The notes: generated by a model not told the origin, from the sequence alone. A stretch of 33,345 bases of DNA from Kiritimatiellia bacterium (GCA_017418445.1 JAFONM010000039.1:1-33345), one strand, 5' to 3'. Positions 10,173-29,979 are shown, numbered from the stretch's first letter. Translations and numbers: made by a program.

Positions 10173-10188
10173 ATCCTTGTTGTCCTTT

Positions 10189-11583: not shown

Positions 11584-11585
11584 TG

Positions 11586-12860
11586 TCAGTAGGACAGGCG
11601 GACGCCGACCGTGCCGCGCCAGCGGTCATAGTCGTACTCGTGGCTGCGGGGTCCGCCGCTGGAGGTCTCCTCGGTCTGGTACTCGACGCGACCGAAGATC
11701 GAGAACATGCGGTTCAGCTGGTAGACGAGACCGACGCGGGCGGTGTAGATGTCCTCGTCGTAGTCATCCTCCTTGTACTCGGTGTACTCGTGGGTCTCCT
11801 TGCGATAGGCGAGGTCAAACGTGGCGCGGAGCTTGTTGCGGACGAGGCCCTTCGCGAGGCCGAGGCTGACCGTATAGACCTTGAGGGCGCTGCCGCACTC
11901 GCGCTCGGACGGCTGGTAGTAGCTCGAGCCGAGGAGCATGAGCGAGGTCGTGTTCTCGTCGTCGATCTGCCACTTGGAGCTGACCTGGTAGGTCCAGCCG
12001 TCAATGTCATCCACGCCGTTGCCGTACTCGAAGCGGGACCAGCCGGCGAGGACGCGGTAGGAGAGCTTCTCTGTCGCGTGCGTCTGGATGCCGCCCATGA
12101 CGGACCAGCCCCTGGAATCGCTGCTCACGCGCTTGCCGCGACGGGAGGCGTCGCCGGTGTGGTAGTCGCTGTCCTTGTCGTTGTCCTGCCAGAACCACTG
12201 GTAGTCCGAAGCGACGATGAGGTCCATCCACTTGTTGACGGTGTAGCCGACCTGGCCGCCGAGCGAGAGGCGCTTCCAGCCGTAGAGCGTCGAATACTTC
12301 TCGACGTCGTTGTCGTAGTCGAGATAGTAGTAGTTGCCGAGAATGCCCGCATGCAGGCTCTCGTTGACGCGACGCTCGAGGATGGCGTCGAACTTGAACT
12401 GCTTGCGGTCGCGTCCGATGCCGCGGCCGTCATGGTCCGTCATATCGTCGTCCTGCGCGATCTGCTCGAAGCTCTCGGCCATCTTGAGGAACCAGCCGGC
12501 CTCGTCCGCCTTGGCGTTCTGCCAGTCGAGACTCAGCTTCTCGCCGAAGCTCGAGGAGTTGAGCTGGGAGGTGTAGCGGTTGTAGGCGTGGTACTGGTAC
12601 CAGACCTGGCCGTCGATCTTCCAGTTGTCGTCCTTGTATACGCCGACGATTCCGGGATTGACGACCCACTGCGAACCGGACTTCGAATGCTTGGACGAGT
12701 CGATGTTGGAATCGTACGTGTACGAGAGGGCCACGTAGGGGCTGAACGTGAGACGATCGTTGATGAAGCGGAAGCCCTTCTGCTCCGCATCCATCTCGGC
12801 CGCCTGCGCTGCAACGGCCGCCGCGACCGTGCACATCGTCAGAAGTTGAATTTTCTTCAT
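11586..12860 (-). CDS. Outer-membrane beta-barrel protein of the polysaccharide cluster
   Basis: This 424-residue protein has a signal peptide (MKKIQLLTMCTVAAAVAAQA, likely cut after residue 20), then alternating aromatic and polar strands (SPYVALSYTYDSNID, DGQVWYQYHAY and similar), and ends with GTVGVRLSY. The terminal aromatic residue is typical of BAM-assembled barrels. It resembles the outer-membrane barrels often encoded with exopolysaccharide genes, and I expect an export or surface-anchoring role. The family assignment is only approximate. An AAAGGAG ribosome binding site lies 5 nt before the ATG. Repeated acidic patches (Asp/Glu-rich turns) suggest long extracellular loops. Confidence 0.75.
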   Translation of the reverse strand: MKKIQLLTMCTVAAAVAAQAAEMDAEQKGFRFINDRLTFSPYVALSYTYDSNIDSSKHSKSGSQWVVNPGIVGVYKDDNWKIDGQVWYQYHAYNRYTSQLNSSSFGEKLSLDWQNAKADEAGWFLKMAESFEQIAQDDDMTDHDGRGIGRDRKQFKFDAILERRVNESLHAGILGNYYYLDYDNDVEKYSTLYGWKRLSLGGQVGYTVNKWMDLIVASDYQWFWQDNDKDSDYHTGDASRRGKRVSSDSRGWSVMGGIQTHATEKLSYRVLAGWSRFEYGNGVDDIDGWTYQVSSKWQIDDENTTSLMLLGSSYYQPSERECGSALKVYTVSLGLAKGLVRNKLRATFDLAYRKETHEYTEYKEDDYDEDIYTARVGLVYQLNRMFSIFGRVEYQTEETSSGGPRSHEYDYDRWRGTVGVRLSY

Positions 12861-12902
12861 TTTTCTCCTTTGAAATTAGTCGTGGAATTTATCTCGGTGA
12901 TA

Positions 12903-13871
12903 TCATTCGTAGGGATAGCGATAGGGCTCATCCTCCTCCTCGACCGAGTCGCCGCGCTTGATGCCGTTGTAGTAGGGCTTCTCGGGATTGAGCGTGCGCG
13001 GAACGCGGTTCATGCCGACGTCCGTGAGCGATTCGGGAAGCGCATACTGCGTCGCGTCCATGTCCAGGGCCACATCGGAGATGGAGCTCGCGACCTTGCC
13101 GTCAGAACCGACGGTGTCGGCGAGCCCGCCGAGGAGCGCGGCCGTTCCGTCCGCAGGAGTCTGGACCATGACATTGGGGGCCACGGCCGCACCCCTGCCG
13201 CCGGACTCCTCTTCCGACTCGGAGGTGCCGAGAATCGGCTCGTAGGTCTTGGGCTCTCCCTCGCCGAGGGCGGCGGCGATCCAGCCGGCGGCCTCGTCGT
13301 TGCCGAGGCTGTCGGTCAGCTCCTTGCGGAGATCGGCGGGCTTGCCTTCGGACGCGCGGATGAACATGAGCGCGGCGAGTGCGTTGCGCTCGTCGGCGTT
13401 CGAGACGTCGGACTTCGCGTTGCGGGCCTTGACAGCGTCGAGAGTGGCGGTCGCCTTGCTCTTCATGTCGGCGTCGGAAACGGGATGCGCGGCGTCGGCG
13501 TTGCGGTTGAAGAGCTCCTTGGCGAACTGCTCGTTCATCTGCGCGAGGGACTCGAGCGACGCGGTCGCAAAGGTCTCGGCGACGAGCGCGGTGAGATTGC
13601 CGTCGGCCGCGTTCTTGAGGGCCGCCTTGGACGCATCCACGTACTTCGCGGTCTTCTCGGCGTCGGAAACGGGCATCGCCGCGATGGCTCCGTTGACGGA
13701 ATTAAGGAACTTCACCTGATCGCCGGCGGACAGTCCCTTCGTCACAGCGGACATCGTGTCGGCTTTCTCGGCCGCTTCGGCCAGCTTGCCGTTGGCCTCG
13801 GACAGAGTCATCGCTCCCGCCGCGGCCGCTATGGCCATGGCTGCGATACCAGTCGTCAATACTTTTTTCAT
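12903..13871 (-). CDS. Secreted alanine-rich protein of unknown function
   Basis: This 322-residue protein has a clear signal peptide (MKKVLTTGIAAMAIAAAAGA). Residues about 22-215 are predicted helical and rich in Ala, Asp and Lys. A linker rich in Glu, Ser and Gly follows (SESEEESGGRG, about 222-232), and an extended tail ends with acidic and tyrosine residues (EEEDEPYRYPYE). I do not recognise a domain. I chose the ATG at 13871 for its AAAGGAA ribosome binding site and because the longer in-frame extension reads into the preceding gene. It lies 49 nt after the wza-like gene and 42 nt before the barrel gene. A periplasmic partner of polymer export is a reasonable but untested guess. Confidence 0.75.
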   Translation of the reverse strand: MKKVLTTGIAAMAIAAAAGAMTLSEANGKLAEAAEKADTMSAVTKGLSAGDQVKFLNSVNGAIAAMPVSDAEKTAKYVDASKAALKNAADGNLTALVAETFATASLESLAQMNEQFAKELFNRNADAAHPVSDADMKSKATATLDAVKARNAKSDVSNADERNALAALMFIRASEGKPADLRKELTDSLGNDEAAGWIAAALGEGEPKTYEPILGTSESEEESGGRGAAVAPNVMVQTPADGTAALLGGLADTVGSDGKVASSISDVALDMDATQYALPESLTDVGMNRVPRTLNPEKPYYNGIKRGDSVEEEDEPYRYPYE

Positions 13872-13920
13872 GTTCTTTTTGTTCCTTTCAGTTCTGTTGT
13901 AAATTAGCCAATCGTTACCG

Positions 13921-14604
13921 TCAGTACATGCGCTCCGGGACCCACACGACGTCGCCGTCCATGAGCTTCCTGTCAAGATCGCCGCGGCCCTCCTCGCCTA
14001 TCAGGACAGTGTCGACGATAGTCCTGTCGAGCGTGCCGTCCTGGTTGCAGTGGGTGACCTGCACCTTGCGCTTGTTCGCGAAGGGGCGGAAACCGCCCGC
14101 GGCCTGGAGCGACTTGAGCACCGTGAGCTCCATCGTGGGCGGCATGTTCACCGGACCAGGCCTCTGCACCTCCCCGAGGACCTTCACCGTGCCGTACGGG
14201 CTCACGCCGGTCAGCTCGTCGAACGGGGCGAAGTAGACGGAGACCTGAGGCTCCTTGATGAACTCCTTGTAGGCCTTCACGAGCTTCTGCCTGAGGGAGT
14301 CGAGAGTCATGTTGTCGCAATGGACCGGCTCCTTGAGAAGATACGGAATGGTGATGTCGCCGTTCTGATCGACGAGCGCCTCGAACTTCGAACTCTGCCT
14401 GCCGGCGACACCCACGTTGACGATGACGGCGACGCCGGGACGAAGCCTCGGCTTGCCGTCCGACCAGCGGGCGAACTGCGTGACGTCGACGCGCTCCTCC
14501 TCCTTGCCGAAGGCGGAATCGTAAAGCGACGAAAGCCACGAGCAACCGCACAGCACGGTCGCCAGCAGAGTGACAAGAATCGTTCTAAGATATGGTATCA
14601 CCAT
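13921..14604 (-). CDS. Wza-like polysaccharide export lipoprotein
   Basis: This 227-residue protein has a lipoprotein signal peptide ending in LCGC (acylated Cys21). A Poly_export domain follows (LRPGVAVIVNVG, then DQNGDITIPYLL and IKEPQVSVYF), and then one SLBB domain (VKVLGEVQRPGPVNMPP, LKSLQAAGGFRPFA). Wza-type proteins form the outer-membrane channel for capsule or exopolysaccharide. This is a short form with one SLBB domain and no obvious C-terminal amphipathic barrel helix, unlike E. coli Wza (379 residues). The separate barrel gene downstream may supply the missing pore. I chose the ATG at 14604. The in-frame GTG at 14625 overlaps the -10 box. It heads the export block and has its own strong promoter. 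Confidence 0.88.
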   Translation of the reverse strand: MVIPYLRTILVTLLATVLCGCSWLSSLYDSAFGKEEERVDVTQFARWSDGKPRLRPGVAVIVNVGVAGRQSSKFEALVDQNGDITIPYLLKEPVHCDNMTLDSLRQKLVKAYKEFIKEPQVSVYFAPFDELTGVSPYGTVKVLGEVQRPGPVNMPPTMELTVLKSLQAAGGFRPFANKRKVQVTHCNQDGTLDRTIVDTVLIGEEGRGDLDRKLMDGDVVWVPERMY

Positions 14605-14616
14605 TTGTCGTGCTGT

Positions 14617-14646
14617 ATTATACACTTTTTATATCGCCGATGTCAA
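14617..14646 (-). promoter_or_regulatory. Full-consensus promoter of the polysaccharide-export operon
   Basis: On the minus strand TTGACA (14641-14646), an 18-nt spacer and TATAAT (14617-14622) are both perfect. The hexamer ends 12 nt before the wza-like ATG, giving a leader of roughly 5-6 nt without a Shine-Dalgarno. The -10 contains the tsaE stop codon TAA, so promoter and upstream coding end are physically merged. Confidence 0.85.
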
Positions 14647-17709: not shown

Positions 17710-17739
17710 ATTATACACCAAACGCCGCCGTCTTGGCAA
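17710..17739 (-). promoter_or_regulatory. Promoter of the acyl-CoA synthetase unit
   Basis: TTGCCA (17734-17739), an 18-nt spacer and TATAAT (17710-17715) are read on the minus strand. The -10 ends 10 nt before the ATG at 17699. Spacing and sequence parallel the promoter at 14617-14646. Confidence 0.75.
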
Positions 17740-17794: not shown

Positions 17795-19177
17795 CTATTC
17801 GAGGGGCAGGGAGAAGTCTATGCGGGAGCCGAGGCCCCGCTTGGACCAGACGGTCATGGCGCCGCCGAGCTCGGAACAGCGCCGCTCCATCGACGCCATG
17901 CCGTAGTGCCCCGATTCCATCACGCGCTCGCTGTCGAACCCGATTCCGTCGTCGACGACGGACATGACGAGCCTGCTGTCCGAAAAGACGAGCCGCACCC
18001 TCACGTGCGCCGCCCTGCCGTGCTTCAGGGCGTTGCCCACCGCCTCCTGCATTATCAGCAGAAGAGTGCCCGCGCTCTTGCGCGCGATTGCGCGCTCCTC
18101 CCCCTCGGCGGCGATCTCGACCTTGCCGTCCCAGTGCGCCATCCTTCGCGCCGCGAAGCCGAAGAGGGCCATCAGGGACTCGGGCCCCTCGCTCTCCTCG
18201 TTCATGGCCCAGAGGGTCGACCTCAGTCCCGTCTGCGTATGCTGCAGCGCCGCCTGGACCTCCGCGAGCTGCTCGGCGGAGCGCGTCGCCTCCTTCGGCA
18301 GGTAGTTGCGCGCCGCCTTGAGGCGGAACATCGCGCTCGCGAGATACTGCTGGAATCCGTCGTGGAGGTCGGCGGCGAGGCGCAGCCTCTCGCGCCTGGC
18401 CGCATCCGCCTCGATGCGCACCGTCTCGCGCTCGCGTATCGACTCGGCGAGTTCGTCCGTGCGCTTTCTCACCATCCTCCTCAAGGTCGCCGCCCAGACG
18501 AAGAGGACGAACACCACGAGACCCAGGATTCCGAGGATTCCCGCCACGCGCCGTCCCGTCCAGAACGGAGGCTTGGGCGCGCGCTTCACGACCTCGACGG
18601 CGTCCGACGAGGTCGGCAGCAGCTCGACGTTCTCGATCCTCCCGAACACGGACTCGTCGTAGTTCTCGATCGACGTGTACGCCAGCGAACCGACTATGCG
18701 CACCGTCGCGCCCTGCACCAGCTTGTCCGGAAGGGATTCCTCGAGCGGAATCGGTATCTCGACCTGGAGGTTGTACTCGCCGTCGCCGACGAGAAGCTGC
18801 GTGGAGTTCTGGCGCCTGTTGATGTCCCTCAGGAGCCCTTCCGTCGCGAACAGTCCGCCGTACCAGCGAGCGTCCCCGTACGGCATGATTCCCGCGAAGA
18901 TTTCCGGTATCTCGACCTCCTTCGGCAGAGGCGCCTCGCCGTGCGACAGGACCTTCAGCCCCTTGGTCGCGAGCCTGTTCTTGACGGCGGACGGCTCCCT
19001 CTCGCCCCAGGCCTCTATGACGTCCCCGACGACGGCGTTGGTCGACGCCGTCCGCTCGACCCGCCAGTTCGAGCCGTCCGACGCCTCGATGAAGTAGAAC
19101 GGAAGCCCGCTCCTCTCGAACGTGACCACGCCGGTCAGGTTCGTGAATGCGGCGGCAAGTAGCAGCGGCAGGGTCAT
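17795..19177 (-). CDS. NarL-partner sensor histidine kinase with OB-like periplasmic region
   Basis: This 460-residue HisKA_3-type kinase has an N-terminal hydrophobic signal (1-16), a periplasmic region to about 205, one TM (about 210-232), and a dimerisation helix with phospho-acceptor His272 in LAADLHDGFQQYLA. The HATPase_c domain shows N-box MQEAVGNALKHG, G1 VVDDGIGFD and G2 GHYGMASM. The periplasmic part contains two similar stretches, about 14-58 (LTGVVTF, VGDVIEAWGE) and about 112-168 (LLVGDGEYNLQV, GATVRIVGS). They read like tandem OB-fold barrels; this is inference from pattern only. The ATG directly follows the regulator's TGA with no gap, so the two are a pair. It is the last gene of the pseudopilin unit. 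Confidence 0.87.
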   Translation of the reverse strand: MTLPLLLAAAFTNLTGVVTFERSGLPFYFIEASDGSNWRVERTASTNAVVGDVIEAWGEREPSAVKNRLATKGLKVLSHGEAPLPKEVEIPEIFAGIMPYGDARWYGGLFATEGLLRDINRRQNSTQLLVGDGEYNLQVEIPIPLEESLPDKLVQGATVRIVGSLAYTSIENYDESVFGRIENVELLPTSSDAVEVVKRAPKPPFWTGRRVAGILGILGLVVFVLFVWAATLRRMVRKRTDELAESIRERETVRIEADAARRERLRLAADLHDGFQQYLASAMFRLKAARNYLPKEATRSAEQLAEVQAALQHTQTGLRSTLWAMNEESEGPESLMALFGFAARRMAHWDGKVEIAAEGEERAIARKSAGTLLLIMQEAVGNALKHGRAAHVRVRLVFSDSRLVMSVVDDGIGFDSERVMESGHYGMASMERRCSELGGAMTVWSKRGLGSRIDFSLPLE

Positions 19178-19777
19178 TCAGGCCCTCAGTATGCCGAGCT
19201 CGTAGGCCCTCCCGACGACCGAGGTCGCGTTGGGACAGCCGAGCTTCGTCATCATGCCCTTCATGTGGGTCTTGACGGACTCCGAACCGATGCCGAGCTC
19301 CGCCGCGATCTGGTCCCGCTGCCTGCCCTGGGCGACGAGCTTCAGGACGTCCATCTCGCGCGCAGTGAGCGGCGACGGTGCGGACTGGAACTCCTCGTGC
19401 GCGAAGACCCCGTCCTTCGCGGCGATTTCACGGATCGCCGCGGAAAGCCGGTCGAGGTCCACGTCCTTGGGGAGGTATCCGCTCGCACCGCCTTCCTTCG
19501 CGCGCGCCTCCTCCTCCTTGAGCGGCATGCCGGCGAGAAGAAGAACCTTCGGCCCGGGATTCAGCCCGCGCATCTTCGCGAGCATCGAGAAGCCGTCCAT
19601 CTTTGGCATCCTGACGTCGCTCAGCACGACGTCGGGGCGTTCCCTGCCGGCAATCTCCACGGCGGCCTCGCCGTTCGGGGCGATGGCCGCAACACGGAAG
19701 CCCTCCTCGCTCTCGAGCATCGCCGCGAGCCCTTCGCGGACCATCGGGTGGTCGTCGACTATCAGTATCGAGATCAC
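19178..19777 (-). CDS. NarL/FixJ-family response regulator
   Basis: This 199-residue regulator has an N-terminal receiver with acidic pair Asp8-Asp9, phospho-acceptor Asp54 (LSDVRMPKMDG) and Lys104 (GYLPKD). The C-terminal LuxR-type helix-turn-helix (LTAREMDVLKLVAQGRQRDQ, then IAAELGIGSESVKTHMKGMM) binds DNA. The conserved Ser/Thr at the end of beta-4 is replaced by alanine (LLLAGMP, Ala82), which may alter phosphorylation-dependent switching. I chose the GTG at 19777, which overlaps the upstream pseudopilin stop (GTGA) and starts the protein at the first beta strand. Targets are unknown; the pseudopilin operon itself is the obvious candidate. Confidence 0.9.
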   Translation of the reverse strand: MISILIVDDHPMVREGLAAMLESEEGFRVAAIAPNGEAAVEIAGRERPDVVLSDVRMPKMDGFSMLAKMRGLNPGPKVLLLAGMPLKEEEARAKEGGASGYLPKDVDLDRLSAAIREIAAKDGVFAHEEFQSAPSPLTAREMDVLKLVAQGRQRDQIAAELGIGSESVKTHMKGMMTKLGCPNATSVVGRAYELGILRA

Positions 19778-20676
19778 TTCATCTCCACATACTTCTTGGA
19801 CCCCGTGTCGTACGCGACATCCCTCGCGTCGCAAAGCCATTCGGTGAGCTCCTGGAGGTTGGCGTCCGGTCTCCAGACGAGCTTCTCGGCATGTCCGTCC
19901 GCGAAGACGACGTGCGCCATGACGTCGCGTCCCGCCTTGTGGTTGAAGCCGATCGATTCGGCGTTGCCGTGGTAGTTCGGAGCGTTCCTGTACTGGAGCA
20001 CGCAGTCGTTCGCGAGTCCCGGGGAGGCCGAGACGTTCGGTTCGCTCCCCGTGAGGTTGGACCACTGGAGCTCCGCGAAGAGGAGGCGCTTGTCGGTGCG
20101 GGTGACGCTCTCCCTCCACTTGCGGGGGTCGTTGATCGTCACGGCCCTGCCGCCCTGCGAATGGTCCCACCCGAAGTACGCGCTCATGACGTAGCTCCAG
20201 CACGGCCTCTGGCCGGCGCGCATCTTGTTGACGTGCGACGGGCACGTGTAGCAGTCCGCGCTGCCGCTCACGGCCGTCCACAGCGCACCGTTGGTGAGGG
20301 CGTACATGCGAACCTCGGTTTCCTGGTTGTAGGCGGAGGTGAACCAGCCGGCGCTCGCCACGTGCGACTGCGGCCTGCCGGCGTACGCTCCGCGGGAATC
20401 CCAGCTGACCCAGCCGCGCCATTCGCTGTAGCCCTTCCTGGCGCTGCCGTTGTTCAGGTCAATGCTCATCGCCTCGCAGGAGCCTGCCAGCGGATAGCAG
20501 CCCGCGCCGCCGAGGTAGGACTGCACGCCGTTCGCGAGGTTCTTCATGTTCGCGAGGCAGTGCGCGGCGCGTGCGGACTCAGTGGCGCCGCCGTAATTTG
20601 TGACCAGTATGGCGATCAGGATGCCGATGATGCTGATGACGACCATCAGCTCCACTAGTGTGAATGCGCGTTTCAT
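19774..20676 (-). CDS. Cysteine-rich pseudopilin with DUF1559-like C-terminal region
   Basis: This 300-residue protein begins MKRAFTLVELMVVISIIGIL: a short basic leader, A|F cleavage junction, Glu+5 and a hydrophobic helix, all as in class III prepilin signals. The mature part contains many cysteines (such as CYTCPSHV and GCYPLAGSC) and a C-terminal HVVFADGHAEKL. That C-terminal stretch recalls the H-x-DG region of PVC-group prepilin-like proteins of the DUF1559 type, although the spacing differs. The ATG at 20676 follows the 1060-residue gene's stop by 15 nt. A TTG nine bases upstream is an alternative. Its stop overlaps the response-regulator start, so it is coupled to the two-component system. 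Confidence 0.85.
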   Translation of the reverse strand: MKRAFTLVELMVVISIIGILIAILVTNYGGATESARAAHCLANMKNLANGVQSYLGGAGCYPLAGSCEAMSIDLNNGSARKGYSEWRGWVSWDSRGAYAGRPQSHVASAGWFTSAYNQETEVRMYALTNGALWTAVSGSADCYTCPSHVNKMRAGQRPCWSYVMSAYFGWDHSQGGRAVTINDPRKWRESVTRTDKRLLFAELQWSNLTGSEPNVSASPGLANDCVLQYRNAPNYHGNAESIGFNHKAGRDVMAHVVFADGHAEKLVWRPDANLQELTEWLCDARDVAYDTGSKKYVEMK

Positions 20677-20691
20677 GTCCTGCAAAGCTCC

Positions 20692-23600
20692 TTATTCGAA
20701 CTGCCTGTAGAAGAGGATGCGCGTCTGGTGGGGTTCGTCGCCCTCGGTAGCCTCCGGATCGCGCCAGACGAGCGCCATCGCGCGCGCACCGAGCTGCGGA
20801 GGCGTCTGCCCCTCGCCGCCCATCATCGTGGGCTCTGCACGGACGAACACGAGGAACAGCTGCTGTCTCGCGGCGAAGGAGTCGCGCCAGTATCCGTACA
20901 GGAACTTGCGGTCGTGGCACCACGGTATGTCCGACTCTCCGCCCAGCTCCACTCCGGCGAACTGGGGATCGTCGGTCCCCGGCTTCGGATAGAAGTTCCA
21001 GCTGATGTCGTCCCACGCCTCCTCCCAGTTCTTGGCGGTCCTCGCCGCGTGCGAGAAGTTGCCGGCTATTGATTCGAGATCCTTCCACTCCATCTTGGAG
21101 GACGACGAATACTCGTTCCATGCCCATTCGCTGTTGAACTTCGTCATCGCCATGCCGGCGTAGTCCGGCGCGCTGCCGTACGGCTCGTTCGTCGCCGCGC
21201 GCTTCCAGTCGAGCGGCGTGTTGGCGAACGCCGCCATCAGGACGTTCGTCGAATCCGAATATGGATTCACCTTGAAGCCGGGACCCTCGTTCAGCCACGG
21301 GAGGAATTCCGTGATGTCCTGCGGATCGTACGTCAGCCAGAAGAGCTTCGTGTGGGCCGTCTTGGCATATGCGTCCGGGATGCCCTTCCACGACTGCACG
21401 TCGGGGCGCGAATAGCCGCCCGCGACGTCGCCGGCGTAGTTCGCTATGTCGGTGAGGCACGGAATGTGCGCGATCTCGTAGCGGCTCTGCAGGTAGCCGG
21501 AGTCGCTCGTCGCCATGAATATGTCGGTGTCGCGACCGTTGTTCATCGCGTTGGAGCGTATATCCTTGAGCCACTCTGTCGGCGTCAGGTCGGAGGACGT
21601 CCTGTACCAGTCCTCAGGCGCGTGGTTGTAGCGCGGGTCGGGGCAGAACATCGCCCGGGGCGAGAGACTCACGTCGTCACCGTCGCCGACCAGCTTGTCG
21701 AGACCCTTCTCCGGATCGAGCGAGCAGGTGAACGTCGCAAGCGTGTCGAAGAGCATCAGCGGAACCTCTGCGCCGAGATAGTCGGCCGCGAGATCCTCGC
21801 CGTACGTCGGCGGAATCTCGTTCTGGGTGAAGTCCTCCCCGCCGGCGGCCGGCACCATGTCCACCACGCGGCTGCCGTCCTTGACGCGAAGCCACAGGGC
21901 CGCCCTGAGCTGGAGGTCCTTCCCGCCGTCCTGCAGGAGCGTCTTGAACCTCGTGCCGGAGGTGAAGTCCGGATCGATGTCGTTGCAGGTGCCGTTCTTC
22001 CAGACCGACGGAGGCAGTCCGCAGAAGCAGTTGTCGGTGAGCTCGTACCGCTTGCCGGCCAGGGCGTCGTTCCACTTGGGATACCATTCCGTTCCGCCGC
22101 CGGTGTTGATTCCGCCTCCTCCGCCGCCCGGGATCTTCCTCGCGACCTGCTCCCACTGGTACTCGACGCGGATGAACTCCTCGCGCTCGAGAAGGTCCTC
22201 GATCGCGGCCTCGGAATCTGAAAGCGCGAACTCGACGGTCTTGAAGGCCTCCTCCTCGGTCCTCGGCGATCTGCCGGAGAAGGATACGGACTGGTTCTGC
22301 AGCTTCGCGTTTATAAGCCCCTTGCGCTCGTCCCACGTAGTCTCGGCGAGCTCTCCGTGCGGAAGCTTGTAGACACACCCGGGATTGGACGCCCTCAGCG
22401 TAGCGCTGTCGCCGGAGGTAAGGAAGAGCGAGAGACGTCCGTCGAGCTTGAAATTGGAGGAATCCGAGCCGTCCTCGTGCGCGAACGGGAAGCAGACGAG
22501 CGCGCGTACGGCGCCCGCGAATCCGGTCGCCAGCTCCCTGCCGATCCTGTATCTGACGACCTGCCTGACCTTGCGCGTCGTGCCCACCTGGTCCGCGCTC
22601 GGCACCCCGTCGCCTCCGCTGCCGTTCTCGTGCGGCTCGGTCTTCTGGGCGTTCATGAACTGGTATTCCTTGTTCAGGCGGAACTTGGAGCCGGGGAAGA
22701 CGGAGTCGATTCCGCAGATCATCGGGACGCGCTCCGCCGTCGGGATGGCGAGGGAGATCGGGTAGTGGTCGGGGTCGAGGTAGTCGTGCAGGGCCGCGCA
22801 GCCGAGGACCGAGAGCTTCTGGACGATGTCCATTCCCTCGCTTCCGTGGGCGGCTCCGGCCTTGGAGGGATACGACCCCTTGTTTATCAGCATCCAGAGG
22901 TCGAGGTCCGGGTCTTCAAGCGACGCCGACGTGAACGGCTGGCACTGCGGGTCGTTGATGTCGAATATGAACTCGCCCCGCGAATTCTTCTTCCCCCTGG
23001 CCGGCTGGACGAACTTCGAGTCCGTGACGAACGTCATGCGCTGGACGTCGACCTCGTGGGAGAAGCCCGGGTCCACGAACGTTCCGTCGCGATCGCCGTA
23101 GTAGCCGTAGAACGGACTCTTCAGGTTCCCGATCGCGCCGCCGTGGCCGAGCCACAGGTTGAAGTCCGCCAGCGAGATGAGCGGATACCTGTCTCCGATC
23201 GAGTCGAACATGAAGGTCTTCGGATTCAGCTCGCCGCGGACATCCTTGAGGCGGCTGTCCCACTTGTCGGCCCCGGTGGCGGCGGACGTGTGCTCGTCGT
23301 CCTCGAATATGTGCGAAAGCGTGATGCGCCGCGCGTCGGCGGACGTCCTGTGCTCGCCGGCGACCATCCTGTTCACGTCGAAGTAGTCCGACACGTCCAG
23401 CGCGCACCAGACGAAGCGGCCCGCATCGAAGGAGAACGTCTGCCAGTAGCCGGTGGGCACCTGCCGCGAGTGGTACCGCGCGCGGTTCACGAGCGCAGGC
23501 GGCATGTACGCAAGGGCCTCCACGCAGAGCGGAGAATACGTCTCGAGCTCGTCGATGTACGACGCCCCTTCTCTGTCGCCGACGAACACCCTGTCGACCC

Positions 23601-23874
23601 AGTAGTTGAGGTTGCTTCCGCCGGAGAGCGAGGAGGACTGGTCTCCAACGCCCGGATGGGGATTGTTGTTGATGGCGCGGTCGATCACCTCGATCGCCTC
23701 GGCGACGGCGGCCTTGGCGAGGAGGCGTGTCGAGCTCGTGCGCCTGAGATAGCTCGACGGGAGCCTGGCGTAGCGCATGTACGCGGAGAAGGAAACGGCG
23801 GAGATCACCATGAAGGCGACCATTCCGAGGACAACCAGCAGCGCACTGCCCTTCCTGGAGAAACGAGTCGTCAT
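20692..23874 (-). CDS. Very large PilX/GspK-like protein (Verru_Chthon cassette A-like)
   Basis: This 1060-residue protein has an N-terminal KGSALLVVLGMVAFMVISAV membrane segment followed by a basic, helical stretch (RYARLPSSYLRRTSSTRLLA). That is the layout of PilX N-terminal and GspK minor pseudopilins, and of what I recall as Verru_Chthon cassette protein A. There is no canonical Glu+5, as in GspK. The remaining roughly 1000 residues are mostly soluble, rich in Trp, Tyr, Asp and Gly, with a Gly run (PGGGGGGINTGGG) in the middle; I recognise no enzyme domain. I chose the ATG at 23874, which overlaps the previous stop (ATGA). It is far larger than GspK (about 320 residues) and probably forms the tip or adhesive part of the pseudopilus (inference). 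Confidence 0.8.
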   Translation of the reverse strand: MTTRFSRKGSALLVVLGMVAFMVISAVSFSAYMRYARLPSSYLRRTSSTRLLAKAAVAEAIEVIDRAINNNPHPGVGDQSSSLSGGSNLNYWVDRVFVGDREGASYIDELETYSPLCVEALAYMPPALVNRARYHSRQVPTGYWQTFSFDAGRFVWCALDVSDYFDVNRMVAGEHRTSADARRITLSHIFEDDEHTSAATGADKWDSRLKDVRGELNPKTFMFDSIGDRYPLISLADFNLWLGHGGAIGNLKSPFYGYYGDRDGTFVDPGFSHEVDVQRMTFVTDSKFVQPARGKKNSRGEFIFDINDPQCQPFTSASLEDPDLDLWMLINKGSYPSKAGAAHGSEGMDIVQKLSVLGCAALHDYLDPDHYPISLAIPTAERVPMICGIDSVFPGSKFRLNKEYQFMNAQKTEPHENGSGGDGVPSADQVGTTRKVRQVVRYRIGRELATGFAGAVRALVCFPFAHEDGSDSSNFKLDGRLSLFLTSGDSATLRASNPGCVYKLPHGELAETTWDERKGLINAKLQNQSVSFSGRSPRTEEEAFKTVEFALSDSEAAIEDLLEREEFIRVEYQWEQVARKIPGGGGGGINTGGGTEWYPKWNDALAGKRYELTDNCFCGLPPSVWKNGTCNDIDPDFTSGTRFKTLLQDGGKDLQLRAALWLRVKDGSRVVDMVPAAGGEDFTQNEIPPTYGEDLAADYLGAEVPLMLFDTLATFTCSLDPEKGLDKLVGDGDDVSLSPRAMFCPDPRYNHAPEDWYRTSSDLTPTEWLKDIRSNAMNNGRDTDIFMATSDSGYLQSRYEIAHIPCLTDIANYAGDVAGGYSRPDVQSWKGIPDAYAKTAHTKLFWLTYDPQDITEFLPWLNEGPGFKVNPYSDSTNVLMAAFANTPLDWKRAATNEPYGSAPDYAGMAMTKFNSEWAWNEYSSSSKMEWKDLESIAGNFSHAARTAKNWEEAWDDISWNFYPKPGTDDPQFAGVELGGESDIPWCHDRKFLYGYWRDSFAARQQLFLVFVRAEPTMMGGEGQTPPQLGARAMALVWRDPEATEGDEPHQTRILFYRQFE

Positions 23875-24341
23875 TCGCGCTCCTCCTCGCTGAGCCTGTA
23901 GTAGTTGGGGTAGAAGTAGCCGGTCTGGAGCGTGCCCGAGGCCGTCTCCGCCTTGAACGACACGCTGCCCTCCCTTATCGTGATCTTGTACGGTGTGTTC
24001 CACGGATCCATCATCTTGCCGCCGTCGTTCAGCTGGGCCATCAGCAGGGTCGGAATCTCGCCGGACCTGGCGGATCCCGCGTGCCCGATGAGGAAGCCGA
24101 CGGCGCCGGAGTCCGCGTCGCGGTTCTCCATGGTCGGCAGACTGTGCGCCTCGTCCCAGTTCTCGTAGGAAAGGATGGCCTGGGTGATTACCTTGACCTC
24201 GCTCTCCGCCTTGGCGATCCTCGCGCGACGCTTGGCCCCGGCGAGCGACGTCGTGACGGCCGCCATGAGCATGGCGAGTATGGCGAGGACGACGAGGACC
24301 TCGACGAGCGTAAAGCCCTTTCTCGTGTCAGTTGACTTCAT
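23871..24341 (-). CDS. GspG-like type II secretion pseudopilin
   Basis: This 156-residue protein has leader MKSTDTRKG, then FTLVEVLVVLAILAMLMAAV with Phe+1 and Glu+5. The mature part shows KAESEVKVITQAILSYE and a DPWNTPYKI block matching the DPWGxPY region of GspG-type major pseudopilins. The calcium-site consensus is only partly visible. Start ATG 24341 has GGAGC 7 nt upstream; the gene overlaps the upstream one by 14 nt. It is the best candidate for the structural pseudopilus subunit in this cluster. Confidence 0.87.
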   Translation of the reverse strand: MKSTDTRKGFTLVEVLVVLAILAMLMAAVTTSLAGAKRRARIAKAESEVKVITQAILSYENWDEAHSLPTMENRDADSGAVGFLIGHAGSARSGEIPTLLMAQLNDGGKMMDPWNTPYKITIREGSVSFKAETASGTLQTGYFYPNYYRLSEEERE

Positions 24342-24813
24342 CGGGGAAGCTCCAGATGTCGTCATACGTGTTGAACTCGCGGTCGGGTCCCGCGCTCTTG
24401 ACGTTGACGGTGTAGGTCTTTCTGGATCCGATGGCCTTGGCGCTTCCGACGCCTATGGCCTTGAACTTCGACGGCTTCTCGTCGTCCTTGCTCACGGCTC
24501 CGCCGCCTGCGAGGTAGTCCGCGTCGTTCACGTCGTTGTCCCCGGCGACGTTCCACGCCCGCTGCCTCAGCTCGCCCGAATTGTCCCACAGCCCGATTAT
24601 CCGGTAGATGTGGTCGTTCCAGATGTACGCGTTGTCCGCCTCCTCGCGGACCTCGGCGATGTTCTCCCTCACGTCCTCGAGCGCGTTCACGCCGGCGACG
24701 CCCGTCCGCCACGATATCGCGGACTGGTTGAAGAGCATGGTCAGTATCGAGAAGAGCATCCCCAGCAGGAGGCTCGCGACCAGAAGCTCGATTATGGTGA
24801 AGCCCCTTTTCAT
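24328..24813 (-). CDS. Pseudopilin, GspJ/cassette C-like
   Basis: This 161-residue protein starts MKRGFTIIELLVASLLLGML, with canonical G|F cleavage and Glu+5. The body (NQSAISWRTGVAGVNALEDV) and its position next to the GspI-like and GspK-like genes suggest a minor pseudopilin comparable with GspJ or the third protein of the Verru_Chthon cassette; that assignment is inference. The C-terminal half is polar with a YDDIWSFPDE end. The ATG shares one base with the upstream stop (TGATG). The much longer in-frame extension upstream lies inside the neighbouring gene and is a shadow. Confidence 0.82.
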   Translation of the reverse strand: MKRGFTIIELLVASLLLGMLFSILTMLFNQSAISWRTGVAGVNALEDVRENIAEVREEADNAYIWNDHIYRIIGLWDNSGELRQRAWNVAGDNDVNDADYLAGGGAVSKDDEKPSKFKAIGVGSAKAIGSRKTYTVNVKSAGPDREFNTYDDIWSFPDEVN

Positions 24814-25358
24814 CAGTCCCCTCCCCCGTCGCCGTCCAGCTTGTCCGTCCTGCCCTGGAACCGGACCTCGGTGTAGAACATCGGCATCGCCATCAGCTCC
24901 GCCTCGTTCCGCGTCGCCTTGAACGCGATCCTCACGACGCCGCTGTTCCTGTCGTGCATGACGACAAGACCCGCCTTGAGCCCTCCCGACGCCGTGGAGG
25001 CCGGCCACGAGACTCCGCCGTTGACCTTGCCGACGACGTCCTGGAAGACGGATCTCGCCCTGCCCTCCGGATTCGACGCTATGGAGCCGTCGCGGTCGAG
25101 GTAGGCGCCCCAGCCGGAGCTGTCGGGCAGGTCCTCGATCGAGTTGAACGCCCGCCACGTGACGTTCGTCGCCGAAAGCGCCGCGACAAGCGGAGAAATG
25201 ACGGCGTCCGCGTACGCGGCCGCCGCAACGTCCTCGCGGCTCTGCCGCTTTTCGCGGTAGCCGAGGCCGTAGAGTCCGATGATGGAGAGGACTCCCCCCG
25301 CCATGATCATTATGGCGAGGTTGATCTCGAGGAGAGTAAATGCCCTTTTCATGCTCAT
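24813..25358 (-). CDS. Pseudopilin, GspI/cassette B-like
   Basis: This 181-residue protein begins MSMKRAFTLLEINLAIMIMA, with an A|F junction and Glu+5. The INLAIMIMAGGVLSIIGL helix differs from the GspG type and resembles GspI-like or cassette-B-like minor pseudopilins. The mature part includes DLPDSSGWGAYLD and ends in an Asp/Gly tail (DGDGGGD). I favour the ATG at 25358, which overlaps the previous stop (ATGA). The ATG at 25352 is equally possible and would give the more typical MKRAF leader. Confidence 0.82.
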   Translation of the reverse strand: MSMKRAFTLLEINLAIMIMAGGVLSIIGLYGLGYREKRQSREDVAAAAYADAVISPLVAALSATNVTWRAFNSIEDLPDSSGWGAYLDRDGSIASNPEGRARSVFQDVVGKVNGGVSWPASTASGGLKAGLVVMHDRNSGVVRIAFKATRNEAELMAMPMFYTEVRFQGRTDKLDGDGGGD

Positions 25359-26191
25359 TCGCTTACGTCCTGTGTCGGAGATGTCGTCGTGCCGACCTTC
25401 TGCGCCGAAATCGATCCCGAGGAGTCCGGCCTCAGGCTGTAGAGCGTCACCGTGGACCTGCCCGTCGTCCCGTTCTGCGCGCCGCTGCCGGAATTGGCGC
25501 CGACCGAGAACAGCATCGATTCCGGCTGGGTGACTCCGCCGGCGGACTTGTTCCACTGGGAGCCGAAGATATAGCCGTGCGGAAGCTGGATCGAGGCAAA
25601 CTCGAACCCGTACGCGTCGCCGGCCCGCCACGAAACGCCGTTCCTGTCCTTCATCTCGTAGGCGTAGCACAGCATCGTCCTGGCATCGTTCCTGGCGAGG
25701 CGAAGGCTGAGCTTCTTGACGGCCGGGACCTCGTACACCACGCTGCGCTGCGGACTCGTCTCGGCGCCGTTGAGCTTGTAGACGAAGACGCCCGATCCCG
25801 AGGCCGTCTGCGCGGAAGTCACCGGCTCGTCTCCGCCCGCGTCGCCGGAATCGACTATCAGGTCCGAGAACTCGTCGTAGAGATAGTTGCCGTCAACCAT
25901 CGAGAAGCGCCCCGAGCGACGGACCGCTATGGCCTTGCCGACCGCAATCGCCGTCTTGTCGGAATCCTCGGCCTGCAGGGTCTCGTTCCAGAAGTACACG
26001 GCCACCGGCGCCCTGTCGATCTGCGCGCGCTGGTACGCCGCACGTATGAACTGGTTCGCGTCGTCGACCGCCCCCCGGTCCTCCATGCCGCGACGCATCG
26101 CGCGGTAGCCGCCGACGGCCACCGTGCCGAGGAAGCCCATGAGCGCTATCACGACGAGCAGCTCGAGAAGCGTAAATGCCCTTTTCGTCAC
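25355..26191 (-). CDS. Pseudopilin, GspH/cassette D-like
   Basis: This 278-residue protein starts with GTG and reads MTKRAFTLLELLVVIALMGF, with an A|F junction and Glu+5. The stretch DANQFIRAAYQRAQIDRAPV after the helix is typical of GspH/FimT-type minor pseudopilins. The C-terminal domain contains a basic, strand-rich region (RRSGRFSMVDGNYLYDEF). The GTG overlaps the upstream stop (GTGA). With the next three genes it forms a D-B-C-A-like order recalling the Verru_Chthon cassette. Confidence 0.83.
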   Translation of the reverse strand: MTKRAFTLLELLVVIALMGFLGTVAVGGYRAMRRGMEDRGAVDDANQFIRAAYQRAQIDRAPVAVYFWNETLQAEDSDKTAIAVGKAIAVRRSGRFSMVDGNYLYDEFSDLIVDSGDAGGDEPVTSAQTASGSGVFVYKLNGAETSPQRSVVYEVPAVKKLSLRLARNDARTMLCYAYEMKDRNGVSWRAGDAYGFEFASIQLPHGYIFGSQWNKSAGGVTQPESMLFSVGANSGSGAQNGTTGRSTVTLYSLRPDSSGSISAQKVGTTTSPTQDVSE

Positions 26192-26736
26192 TGCGTCTTC
26201 ACCTCCATGGAGTCCGTGGGAATCGAATAGACTATCCTAAGCCTCCTGAAATGCCCTGTCGAGGTCTCGGGATAGCCGAAGTACATCTCGGAGACCGACA
26301 TCTTCCTCGGGCTCCTCTTCGTCCCGCGGACCGCCTCCCAGAAATCCATGCCGTAGTCGTTCTGGTTGTTCTCGCCGGGGCTGCGCGAGACGAAGAGGCC
26401 GGAGATGTCGATGAGGGGGTTGCCCTTCACGGTCTCGTCCACGATCGCCCGTATCGTCTGCCGCACCTGCATGGCGGTAAGCTCGTAGAGGTCCTTGTTG
26501 CCGAAGTCGTTGGAGTTTATCCCGTCCTCCGCGGAACTGCCCAGCGGACCCGGCCACTCGTCCTTCTGCGCCCTGTACGTCTCGATGCCCTGCTGGACGC
26601 AGTGAACGATCGCGCTGGCCTTCTGGGAGCGCGAGAGCTTGATCGAGTTGGCGGTCGCCGTCATGACGATCGCCATGAGGACCGCTATGATGGCGATCAC
26701 CGCCATGAGCTCGATTATGGTGAAGCCCTTCTTCAT
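26188..26736 (-). CDS. Type II secretion-like pseudopilin
   Basis: This 182-residue protein begins MKKGFTIIELMAVIAIIAVL, with G|F cleavage and Glu+5. A GspG-like helical segment follows (KASAIVHCVQQGIETYRAQK, then DEWPGPLG), and the C-terminal part is strand-rich (GHFRRLRIVYSIP). The start is 2 nt after the previous stop. The long in-frame extension upstream belongs to the antisense-like reading of the neighbour. Its exact role among the pseudopilins is unclear. Confidence 0.83.
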   Translation of the reverse strand: MKKGFTIIELMAVIAIIAVLMAIVMTATANSIKLSRSQKASAIVHCVQQGIETYRAQKDEWPGPLGSSAEDGINSNDFGNKDLYELTAMQVRQTIRAIVDETVKGNPLIDISGLFVSRSPGENNQNDYGMDFWEAVRGTKRSPRKMSVSEMYFGYPETSTGHFRRLRIVYSIPTDSMEVKTQ

Positions 26737-26738
26737 CG

Positions 26739-27350
26739 TCAGTTCACGTCCTTCGTCTGTCCGTCCGTCCAGCTCTTGATGAGCACGCCCTTCGGCCCGC
26801 GGCACCACACGGCCGCCGTCGAGCGTATCGACACGGACTTCCTGTCGGAGCCCTTGAGGTCGGGCACCGTCGCGCCCGGGTTCACGTTCTTTATGACGCC
26901 GTCGCCGTCGAGGTCGATGGCGTAGCAGAGCCTGTGGTCGGCTATCGTCCCGCCGATCGGCACCCGGTCGGACTCGGAGCAGGACTCTCCGCGGTTCTTG
27001 ATCACCGCGGCCGCCCAGGGCGTGACGATGCCGAACTTGTCGAGCCCCTTGAGCTTCTTCATCCCTGTGTCGTACGAAAGCGACATCCCGATCTGGCTCG
27101 CGAGCGGATACGCGGCCGTCTCGTCGAGTCCGCGCGAGCTGTTGTTGTTGTTTATCAGGCACTTGGGCCACGCGCCGTTCTGCTCGAAGAGCGCCGCGAG
27201 GGCCGTCTCGGTGTTCTTGACGAGCTCGCTGCACTTCGCGATCTCGGCCTTCTGCGGCGCCTTGCCGAAGCCGGTCATGAGAATCCCCATCATGACGGCT
27301 ATGATGCCGACCACTACGAGGAGCTCCACCAGGGTAAATCCTTTTTTCAT
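26739..27350 (-). CDS. Type II secretion-like pseudopilin
   Basis: This 203-residue protein starts MKKGFTLVELLVVVGIIAVM, with canonical G|F cleavage and Glu+5. The body has a GspG-like helix (AEIAKCSELVKNTETALAAL, FEQNGAWPKCL) and a DLDGDGVIKNV stretch that resembles a calcium-binding loop. Start ATG 27350 has GGAGG 7 nt upstream, which decides against the adjacent TTG. The two cysteines flanking the first helix (AKCSEL, WPKCL) could form a disulfide. Confidence 0.84.
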   Translation of the reverse strand: MKKGFTLVELLVVVGIIAVMMGILMTGFGKAPQKAEIAKCSELVKNTETALAALFEQNGAWPKCLINNNNSSRGLDETAAYPLASQIGMSLSYDTGMKKLKGLDKFGIVTPWAAAVIKNRGESCSESDRVPIGGTIADHRLCYAIDLDGDGVIKNVNPGATVPDLKGSDRKSVSIRSTAAVWCRGPKGVLIKSWTDGQTKDVN

Positions 27351-27369
27351 CAAGTCGCCTCCGCTTTCG

Positions 27370-28566
27370 TCAGTTGCTCATCTGCAGGATGTCGTCGACC
27401 GTCCACAGCGCTATGCACTCCCTCGCCTTGCTGCCGCCCTCGATGTTCTCGCGGTCGACCCACGGCGGGAACGTACGTCCGTTCGCGCCCGCGCTCCAGA
27501 GCGTGTAGTGCTGGTAGGGCGCGGGGGAGTAGTAGTAGAACTCGTGGCCCCAGCCGTCCAGTATGGTCACGCCGTCGAGGACGTACTGCGTGGACGTCGA
27601 GTCCGATTCCGCGCCGCCCGGGGCGAAGATCTCGATGCCGACGTTGTCCGGGTCGAGCTCGCTCTGCGGCCATATCGTGTCGCGGATGTCGATTCCGAAG
27701 AGAGTGAACGAGTGGTTCACCCTGCATATCCCGCGGAGATTGGGCATCCACCTCGCGCAGACGGACTGCGACGGGACGTTCGCGAGCTCCGCGTTGTCGC
27801 GCGACACGTCGCTTATCGCGAGGCGACGGACCTGCTGCCAGCCGCCGGACGTGGAATAGGACCTGCCTGTCAGCGGATTGCACGGCATCTGGTTGTTGCC
27901 GGTCCACTGCGAGTACTCCGTGAAGAACTCCTCGGGGCAGTCCATCATGACGAGATAGCGGGGGAGAAGATAGCTCATCACCCCGAACTTGAAGAGCTGG
28001 ATGTCCTGCCAGCTGACCTTGTCCTTGTTCTTCGAGTGGCGGCTCCTGTTCTTCGTGACGCCGTCGTCGAAGCCGGCCGCGAGGCGCGCCTTGACGGACT
28101 CGTTCTGCCAGTACGCGGCGTACGCCTCCTCGCCCGACATGGCGCGCGCCTTCATCTCCTCCGAGACGAGCTCCACGAGCTCGTCGTAGCCGCTCGGATA
28201 CGGGAAGCGGCAGTCGACGGGCTGCGCCCTGCATGCGGCCTGCACCTGGTTCCACGCCGCATACTCGGCCGACTCGCCGATCCTCGACCAGCCCCAGAGC
28301 CCCGTGTTGTCGCTGTCCTTCTGGAGCCCGTGCACGTTCACCGCCCTGTAGATGTCGCGCGAGGCGTGGAGCTTCACCGGCGGATACGTCCCGAAGGCCG
28401 CGTGGTAGCCGGAGAGACAGTTCTCGAGACGCTGGATGCGCGTGATCGTCGCGGCCTTGCGCCACGAGTCGCCGCCCGCCGTCGCGAGCTTGTAGACGAT
28501 GCCCATCAGGACCACCATCACTGCGATGGTGATCATGAGCTCTATGAGAGTGAACGCCCTTTTCAT
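27370..28566 (-). CDS. Large GspG-family-like pseudopilin
   Basis: This 398-residue protein begins MKRAFTLIELMITIAVMVVL (A|F junction, Glu+5). Near the C-terminus are ILDGWGHEFYYYSPAPYQHY and TLWSAGANG, closely matching the GspG pattern DPWGxPYxY...LWSxGxDG. Between these, about 250 residues form an insertion rich in Cys, Trp and Arg (such as CRAQPVDCRFPYP and MMDCPEEFF). It is more than twice the usual size for the family. It lies 16 nt after gspF, so it is probably the first pilin-like gene translated in the operon. Confidence 0.84.
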   Translation of the reverse strand: MKRAFTLIELMITIAVMVVLMGIVYKLATAGGDSWRKAATITRIQRLENCLSGYHAAFGTYPPVKLHASRDIYRAVNVHGLQKDSDNTGLWGWSRIGESAEYAAWNQVQAACRAQPVDCRFPYPSGYDELVELVSEEMKARAMSGEEAYAAYWQNESVKARLAAGFDDGVTKNRSRHSKNKDKVSWQDIQLFKFGVMSYLLPRYLVMMDCPEEFFTEYSQWTGNNQMPCNPLTGRSYSTSGGWQQVRRLAISDVSRDNAELANVPSQSVCARWMPNLRGICRVNHSFTLFGIDIRDTIWPQSELDPDNVGIEIFAPGGAESDSTSTQYVLDGVTILDGWGHEFYYYSPAPYQHYTLWSAGANGRTFPPWVDRENIEGGSKARECIALWTVDDILQMSN

Positions 28567-28582
28567 TTTCGCCCCGACTCCG

Positions 28583-29896
28583 TCACGCCCCCCCGGAGAC
28601 CGCCGAGATGATCTTGATCATCGGGAGGAACATCGCGACGACGATGGTTCCGACGACGACCGCGAGGAAGATGATGAGCGCAGGCTCGATCGCGGCCGTC
28701 ATGCCCGCCACGGCGTTGTCGACCTCGTCGTCGTACGTGTTGGCGACGCGCGTGAGCATGTCGGCGAGAGCGCCGGTCTCCTCGCCGACCTCGACCATCG
28801 AGACGACCATCGGGGGGAACACCCAGCACTGCGAGAGGGGACCGGTCATCCCCTCGCCCTCCTTCACGGCGTCGTGGACGTCCTGGATCGCCTTCGCCAC
28901 GATGCGGTTGCCGGACGTGTCGCGGACGATCACGAGGGACTGCAGGATGGGGACGCCCGATGCGAGGAGCGTTCCCAGCGTGCGCGTAAGGCGCGAAATC
29001 GCCGTGCGCTGCACCAGGGTTCCCGTAACCGGGACCTTCAGCGCCATGTAGTCGAAGAAGTACGCTCCCTTCTCCGTGCTGCCTATTATCTTCTTCACGA
29101 CCACGAGGGCGATGACGACGGCGAGGACCACGAACCAGTTGTGCTGGACGTACTCGGACGCGTCGATGACGAACTGCGTGACGCCCGGCAGCTCCTCGCC
29201 CTGCATCATGTCGGCGAACACCTGCTGGAACTTGGGGATGACCGAGACGAGGAGGAACGCCGTGATGCCGATCGCGGCAACCAGGACCACGACGGGGTAG
29301 ATCATCGCGCCCTTCACCTTGTTCTTGATCTTCTCGGACTTCTCGGCGAACTCGGCGAGTCGCGCGAGCACGACTTCCAGCACGCCGCCCGCCTCGCCGG
29401 CCTTCACCATGTTGATGTACAGATTGTCGAATATCTTCGGATAGGCGGTGAGCGCCTCGGAGAAGGTTCCGCCCGAGGCGATCGACTCGGAGATCCCGTT
29501 CAGCGCCTCGAGAAGCTGCTCGTCCTTCATCTGGCGCTTCAGTACGTCGAGGCCGCGCATCAGCGGAAGGCCGGCGTTGACGAGCGTCGCGAGCTGGCGG
29601 GTGAACTGGGTGAGGACCTTCGTCTTGATCTTCATGCGAAGGAACTTCGGCATGGAGAGCTTGATCTCCATGTTGAGACCCTTGCCCTTCTTCTTGCCGC
29701 CCTCCGCCGGCTCGGGCGCCGGAGCGCCCCTGCGCGCCTTCTTCGCGGGGGCCGAGGAGCGGACTTCGCCCATGGCCGTGGGCCTGAGACCCTGCGCCCT
29801 GACGGCCTCGATGGCCGACTGGCGGTCGCCAGCCTCCACGACGCCACGCGTCTCGTTTCCCGCCGCGTCTTTCGCAATGTACTGAAATGTCGCCAT
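28583..29896 (-). CDS. Type II secretion / type IV pilus platform protein GspF (PilC family)
   Basis: This 437-residue inner-membrane platform protein recruits pseudopilins to the assembly ATPase. It starts MATFQYIAKDAAGNETRG, typical of the family. A basic Ala/Pro/Lys-rich linker (residues about 48-75) follows, and then two T2SSF domains. Each has the FTRQLATLVNAGLPLMRGLD or ISRLTRTLGTLLASGVPI pattern and GGVLEVVLARLAEF or ETGALADMLTRVANTYDDEV. Three membrane helices are evident. I prefer the ATG at 29896; a GTG at 29911 is in frame but neither has a clear ribosome binding site. No gspE or gspD is nearby. Confidence 0.92.
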   Translation of the reverse strand: MATFQYIAKDAAGNETRGVVEAGDRQSAIEAVRAQGLRPTAMGEVRSSAPAKKARRGAPAPEPAEGGKKKGKGLNMEIKLSMPKFLRMKIKTKVLTQFTRQLATLVNAGLPLMRGLDVLKRQMKDEQLLEALNGISESIASGGTFSEALTAYPKIFDNLYINMVKAGEAGGVLEVVLARLAEFAEKSEKIKNKVKGAMIYPVVVLVAAIGITAFLLVSVIPKFQQVFADMMQGEELPGVTQFVIDASEYVQHNWFVVLAVVIALVVVKKIIGSTEKGAYFFDYMALKVPVTGTLVQRTAISRLTRTLGTLLASGVPILQSLVIVRDTSGNRIVAKAIQDVHDAVKEGEGMTGPLSQCWVFPPMVVSMVEVGEETGALADMLTRVANTYDDEVDNAVAGMTAAIEPALIIFLAVVVGTIVVAMFLPMIKIISAVSGGA

Positions 29897-29950: not shown

Positions 29951-29979
29951 ATTTTAACATAACCTTGCTCGTTTAGCAA
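29951..29979 (-). promoter_or_regulatory. Promoter of the gspF-pseudopilin operon
   Basis: TTGCTA (29974-29979), a 17-nt spacer and TAAAAT (29951-29956) are read on the minus strand in the 99-nt gap before gspF. The predicted leader is roughly 45-50 nt. The TTGC-type -35 resembles that of the rubrerythrin promoter. Confidence 0.6.

Follow-up and report, generated by a model that had tools for sequence, protein, structure and literature searches.

A twelve-gene prepilin operon in a Kiritimatiellia bacterium that may encode an alternative pseudopilus with a giant GspK-like protein

The window, by which we mean the whole 33,345-nucleotide (nt) stretch of Kiritimatiellia DNA that was analyzed, carries 12 open reading frames (ORFs) that follow one another on the minus strand from 29893 to 17795, and all of them were found where a preliminary description of the locus had placed them (Table 1). 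Read 5' to 3', they encode GspF, the prepilins P1 to P7, a protein of 1060 aa (K), the prepilin P9, a response regulator (RR) and a histidine kinase (HK). Consecutive genes lie at most 19 nt apart, with overlaps at six junctions, and we infer that the 12 genes are transcribed as a single unit. Some gene starts were refined: the start of GspF was moved from 29896 to the ATG at 29893, P7 starts at either 24341 or 24365, P9 at the ATG at 20676 and the RR at the GTG at 19777. Pfam searches and ORF translations revealed no ATPase of this class, secretin or prepilin peptidase in the 33,345 nt (in the first 7.7 kb, Pfam was applied to some genes and the remainder were judged from ORF translations). 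The 12-gene pseudopilus operon described earlier, with genes joined by gaps of at most 19 nt or by overlaps, is thus confirmed, as is the absence of these three components from both the operon and the window. On the same strand, the window also contains an exopolysaccharide-type operon (7716-14625) that encodes a Wzc-like tyrosine kinase/chain-length protein, a BBP2_2 porin, a Poly_export/SLBB protein and two further proteins.

Table 1. Genes and promoter of the prepilin operon, with the spacing between each gene and the next.
Feature	Position	Strand	Basis or remark	Junction with next gene
Likely operon promoter	29951..29979	-	TTGCTA-17-TAAAAT, TG ahead of second hexamer	
GspF/PilC inner-membrane platform protein	28583..29893	-	PF00482 1.5e-62	gap 16 nt
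P1, 398-aa prepilin	27370..28566	-	N_methyl and C-terminal T2SSG (GspG) domain PF08334 2.3e-6	gap 19 nt
P2, prepilin, N-terminus GspG/H-like	26739..27350	-	profile matches	gap 2 nt
P3, prepilin, N-terminus GspG/ComGC-like	26188..26736	-	profile matches	overlap 4 nt
P4, GspH position	25355..26191	-	Verru_Chthon D-like, under cut-off	overlap 4 nt
P5, GspI/PilV position	24813..25358	-	Verru_Chthon B-like, under cut-off	overlap 1 nt
P6, GspJ position from gene order	24328..24813	-	Verru_Chthon C-like, under cut-off	overlap 14 nt
P7, GspG-like prepilin, candidate major subunit	23871..24341	-	TIGR01710 match	overlap 4 nt
K, giant GspK-like pseudopilin, 1060 aa	20692..23874	-	HMM and predicted structure	gap 15 nt
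P9, 300-aa prepilin, C-terminal DGH motif	19774..20676	-	in most genus relatives	overlap 4 nt
RR, NarL/LuxR-type	19178..19777	-	Response_reg 3.5e-27, GerE 4.5e-15	gap 0 nt
HK, sensor histidine kinase	17795..19177	-	HisKA_3 and HATPase_c; N-terminal extracytoplasmic region	

The likely operon promoter is overlapped by an inverted repeat (TTGCT-AAACG-AGCAA, at about 29965-29979). An exact TATAAT was present 5' of GspF in 18 of 19 genus loci (0.6 expected from mononucleotide shuffling), roughly 25-110 bp before the GspF start; the window is the one exception, with TAAAAT in place of TATAAT. The element is common to RR-positive and RR-negative genomes, and comparison by eye of the regions upstream of GspF revealed no motif specific to RR-positive genomes that might act as an RR operator. 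At the opposite end of the operon, a strong sigma-70-like promoter (TTGCCA-18-TATAAT, 17710-17739) lies between HK and an AMP-binding gene, so this downstream gene is probably transcribed separately.

GspF matched PF00482 with 209.5 bits, over the cut-off of 25.2, and scored 391 bits against the GspF equivalog TIGR02120, under the cut-off of 424. Seven of the eight prepilins scored over the N_methyl cut-off, with P5 under it. The match of P1 to PF08334 reached 28.1 bits (cut-off 21) and that of P7 to TIGR01710 reached 46.5 bits across 53 aa (cut-off 88.85).

K matched the GspK model NF037980 weakly (1.3e-3, 18.3 bits, cut-off 130), and the same model matched 28 of 35 K orthologues. In the K sequence, position +5 from the predicted cleavage site is occupied by a residue other than Glu; GspK likewise lacks Glu here. 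An AlphaFold2 prediction based on an alignment of 35 orthologues (mean pLDDT 82, pTM 0.82) contains one N-terminal helix (residues 10-68) and, beyond a mixed insertion of ~900 aa, three C-terminal strands (1005-1059). The best VIA match of this model was ETEC GspK (3ci0_K; Z 7.8, rmsd 3.1, 108 aligned), while the other rows had Z 5.5 or lower. As residues 38 and 1060 of the model are the two ends of the alignment, the pilin frame appears to be split by the insertion. The model is suggestive of a GspK-type pilin frame, at a Z under 8 and over 108 residues only. Residues 366-764, predicted alone, form a beta-rich domain (pLDDT 85) for which the VIA matches were all generic beta-sandwiches (GH2 accessory, transglutaminase; Z no higher than 6.2). 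Foldseek found nothing in the PDB under E 0.001 for the whole of K or for residues 366-764, and a PDB sequence profile search with K gave zero matches up to E 1.

The preliminary description had likened P4, P5, P6 and K to the D, B, C and A members of the Verru_Chthon cassette, a tandem of four genes; our literature search found nothing on 'Verru_Chthon cassette'. This identity fails the HMM check that had been proposed for it. P4 scored 21.0 bits against TIGR02596 (protein D, cut-off 70), P5 17.5 bits against TIGR02598 (protein B, cut-off 51.4) and P6 15.2 bits against TIGR02599 (protein C, cut-off 256.5), and K had no match to TIGR02600 (protein A, cut-off 332.3 bits) at E<=1. What stands is the D-B-C-A-like order, matched position by position in the orthologues (P4 to D in 22/25, P5 to B in 20/25, P6 to C in 26/26 and K to TIGR02600 in 9/35, the last with a best score of 36.5 bits); the best E-values were 1e-6 to 1e-9, and all these matches were under cut-off wherever scores were printed. 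Cassette A is also giant, with a model of 1296 positions. However, P7 sits between the C-like and A-like genes, and when K was aligned with five true cassette A proteins using hhalign, 68 N-terminal columns aligned and nothing beyond. Furthermore, no GspF match was seen beside four true cassette A genes (L225, L226, L227 and L231; flanks of ~4-11 kb a side). With all four window proteins under the cut-offs and the hhalign match confined to the N-terminus, we rejected membership, and the chance that a bona fide cassette is embedded in a larger operon is very small.

In most orthologues, the positions of P4, P5 and K also match the GspH, PilV and GspK models, and a common H-I-J-K module is thus the best reading of the shared signal. 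A deep common ancestry of this module would survive the refutation of cassette membership. The cassette A model was weakly matched in 131 of 241 phylum genomes (7 over cut-off), and these mostly N-terminal matches show that large GspK-like proteins are widespread, and nothing more.

The earlier proposal to look for the same gene order in related genomes proved fruitful: the nine-gene order GspF-P1-P2-P3-P4-P5-P6-P7-K recurs in the genus, family and order, with some genes missing from the comparison at contig ends or where similarity falls. Within the genus, gene lengths are stable and the 4-nt overlaps are kept. Of 145 relatives (genus to class), 121 have K, the more distant ones mostly as N-terminal matches. 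A chance array of ORFs is ruled out by this conservation, given that relatives keep gene order and gene sizes at ~25-80% protein identity. The named records are Kiritimatiellae, Verrucomicrobia and Lentisphaerae MAGs, many of them from gut sites (goat, sheep, yak, roe deer, cattle and horse). A 3.8-kb contig (L107, G072:C118) assigned to another genus carries K, P9 and RR of the type found in the genus of the window, besides the K operon of that genome itself, which may reflect either transfer or binning contamination.

The source genome is a MAG of 1.39 Mb that is 65% complete. It encodes a canonical GspG-H-I-J-K operon (contig C3), GspD together with GspM-like and GspL-like genes (C70; the GspL-like gene was assigned by eye from its position and sequence), a block of consecutive genes for a PilB-type ATPase, PilT and a GspE-type ATPase (C18), a further, third GspE cut by the contig end (C49), an Amuc_1098-like secretin (C14), minor pilins alongside an ATPase-F pair (C44), Tad-like genes for F and ATPase proteins, and one Peptidase_A24 match. 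GspE and GspD are absent from the operon, and because the genes for motor (GspE), pore (GspD) and peptidase lie on other contigs, the operon can be served in trans. On a further contig of the same MAG (L093, G000:C22), an FlhA/SctV-like protein, recognized by eye, adjoins a secretin, a possible type III secretion-like locus.

The GspF orthologue and K are on different contigs in nine genus genomes, and in the GspF tree all nine fall to the same side of a single branch. In the two operons examined among these nine (G031 and G034), GspF is missing from the operon head. In G031 the GspF orthologue lies 2 kb from PilB, and in G012 a gap of 7 nt separates it from the next gene, which from its sequence looks like a prepilin peptidase; a canonical GspK is nearby. 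Since GspF stands beside core genes in these genomes and is unlinked from the operon in the sister clade, it appears to be a core platform protein rather than an operon-exclusive one. The genome contains several ATPases and further F proteins, so the motor and secretin partners of GspF are best regarded as candidates. In one genome (G001, L044:21-1737), the operon lies directly 3' of two TadE-like genes whose homologues adjoin GspL/M/D on C70 in the genome of the window, a hint of a link between the operon and the type II secretion system (T2SS) core.

RR and HK form a domain-complete NarL/LuxR pair, with the receiver, GerE, HisKA_3 and HATPase_c domains all over cut-off. RR orthologues (61% identity or more) were found in 28 of 145 relatives, and in 25 of these 28 the gene is no more than about 3 kb from where K or P9 ends. 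HK orthologues (51% or more) were also found in 28 genomes; about 11 adjoin the operon, two of them on the opposite strand. Nine genomes have RR beside the operon and HK on another contig, and in the seven of these kinase loci that were fetched no RR was found near HK; as the contigs are short, the RR-HK distance is a lower bound. Of 61 genus genomes, 23 have both RR and HK (Fisher p 2.7e-8, a value without phylogenetic correction). On the GspF tree, RR requires one change and is confined to one clade, some members of which lack it, so the linkage is genuine, yet young compared with the pseudopilus. Paralogous HK-RR pairs (HK 36-46% identity) occur at other sites, with no recognizable prepilin operons beside them. 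Its linkage suggests that RR may control the operon, although the promoter is conserved with and without RR.

We think it somewhat probable that the operon specifies an alternative pseudopilus serving a type II secretion-like engine, alternative because the same genome has canonical GspGHIJK, GspD/GspM, GspE/PilB/PilT and a peptidase. P1-P3, P7 and P9 would form or modify the shaft, and P4-P5-P6-K would form a tip of the H-I-J-K type. K, lacking Glu5, would cap the filament, and its very large exposed domain, in the periplasm or outside the cell, would select cargo or bind substrate. GspF would anchor assembly, one of the chromosomal GspE/PilB ATPases would supply power, a prepilin peptidase encoded elsewhere would mature the prepilins and a chromosomal secretin (GspD or Amuc_1098-like) would be the exit. 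In one clade, a NarL-type regulator would have been added at the 3' end of the operon, with its cognate kinase often encoded elsewhere, and RR would probably adjust expression of the operon or of its substrates.

Against this proposal, the operon has more prepilins than a normal T2SS set and the genome encodes a PilT-family ATPase, so a type IV pilus is possible. The operon would then encode a type IVa-like surface pilus, a long extracellular and possibly retractile fibre that PilB/PilT and the Amuc_1098-like secretin would drive and in which K would be a tip adhesin binding plant or mucus polysaccharide; we regard this as rather unlikely. The PilB-PilT block and this secretin in the genome, the GspF orthologue near PilB in G031, the eight prepilins, the beta-sandwich region in the K insertion and the gut habitat of the relatives all fit such a fibre. 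The details of the proteins point the other way, as K without Glu5 is GspK-like rather than PilX-like, the gene order is H-I-J-K-like, P7 and P1 match GspG and the beta-sandwich matches are generic (best Z 6.2).

The preliminary description proposed a secretion machine that is independent and under the control of a sensor, with a two-component system dedicated to it. RR overlaps P9 by 4 nt and abuts HK, it lies beside the operon in 25 of 28 genomes, and nine genomes keep it there even though HK is elsewhere, so the linkage of a regulator is upheld. The dedicated system is upheld only in part, as HK is adjacent in 11 of 28 genomes and the arrangement belongs to one clade of the genus. Neither does the operon look like a machine of its own: motor, pore and peptidase are encoded elsewhere, GspF is unlinked in the sister clade, in most of the order the pseudopilus occurs without RR/HK, and one change on the tree explains RR. 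We consider such a machine improbable.

Our favoured reading, an alternative pseudopilus, has wider implications. It is possible, and we suggest it only tentatively, that Verrucomicrobiota swap pseudopilin sets on one shared engine, using giant GspK-like tips and, in one clade, RR-controlled tip choice. If so, the giant GspK-like tips, which would make up a family of proteins roughly 700-1700 aa long, carry cargo- or substrate-binding domains, and the linked RR in one Kiritimatiellae clade places tip choice under signal control. GspF with an H-I-J-K set and a 1060-aa tip, beside a canonical set, offers a testable case of one engine with different tips, and the RR linkage in one clade offers a genetic handle on the timing of alternative tip production. 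The weak cassette A matches in 131 of 241 phylum genomes extend the question beyond a single gut lineage. Clusters rich in prepilin genes are common among Verrucomicrobiota; we found no description of the function of this kind of cluster in the literature, and nothing on Kiritimatiellae combined with type II secretion and pilin. A study of Verrucomicrobiota reported an alginate-induced pseudopilin and one genome with 67 homologues of a pulG-like pseudopilin (PMC13274419).

Among known systems, the Verru_Chthon cassette resembles the operon in its D-B-C-A-like order, its giant A-like protein and a weak HMM match at each position, whereas the operon is linked to GspF and further prepilins and its A match is confined to the N-terminus. 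The canonical GspG-H-I-J-K operon on C3 encodes the same protein class in the same genome but has a short GspK (about 425 aa), no GspF and no regulator. With the GspH-I-J-K tip of the T2SS (ETEC 3ci0; Pseudomonas XcpUVWX, PMC6211770), the operon shares the H-I-J-K order, the presence of GspF, and a K that lacks Glu5 and has a predicted GspK-like pilin frame. It differs in the size of K, 1060 aa with an insertion of ~900 aa, in several extra GspG-like prepilins, in the GspG-like gene between J and K, and in being without E, D, L, M, C and peptidase.
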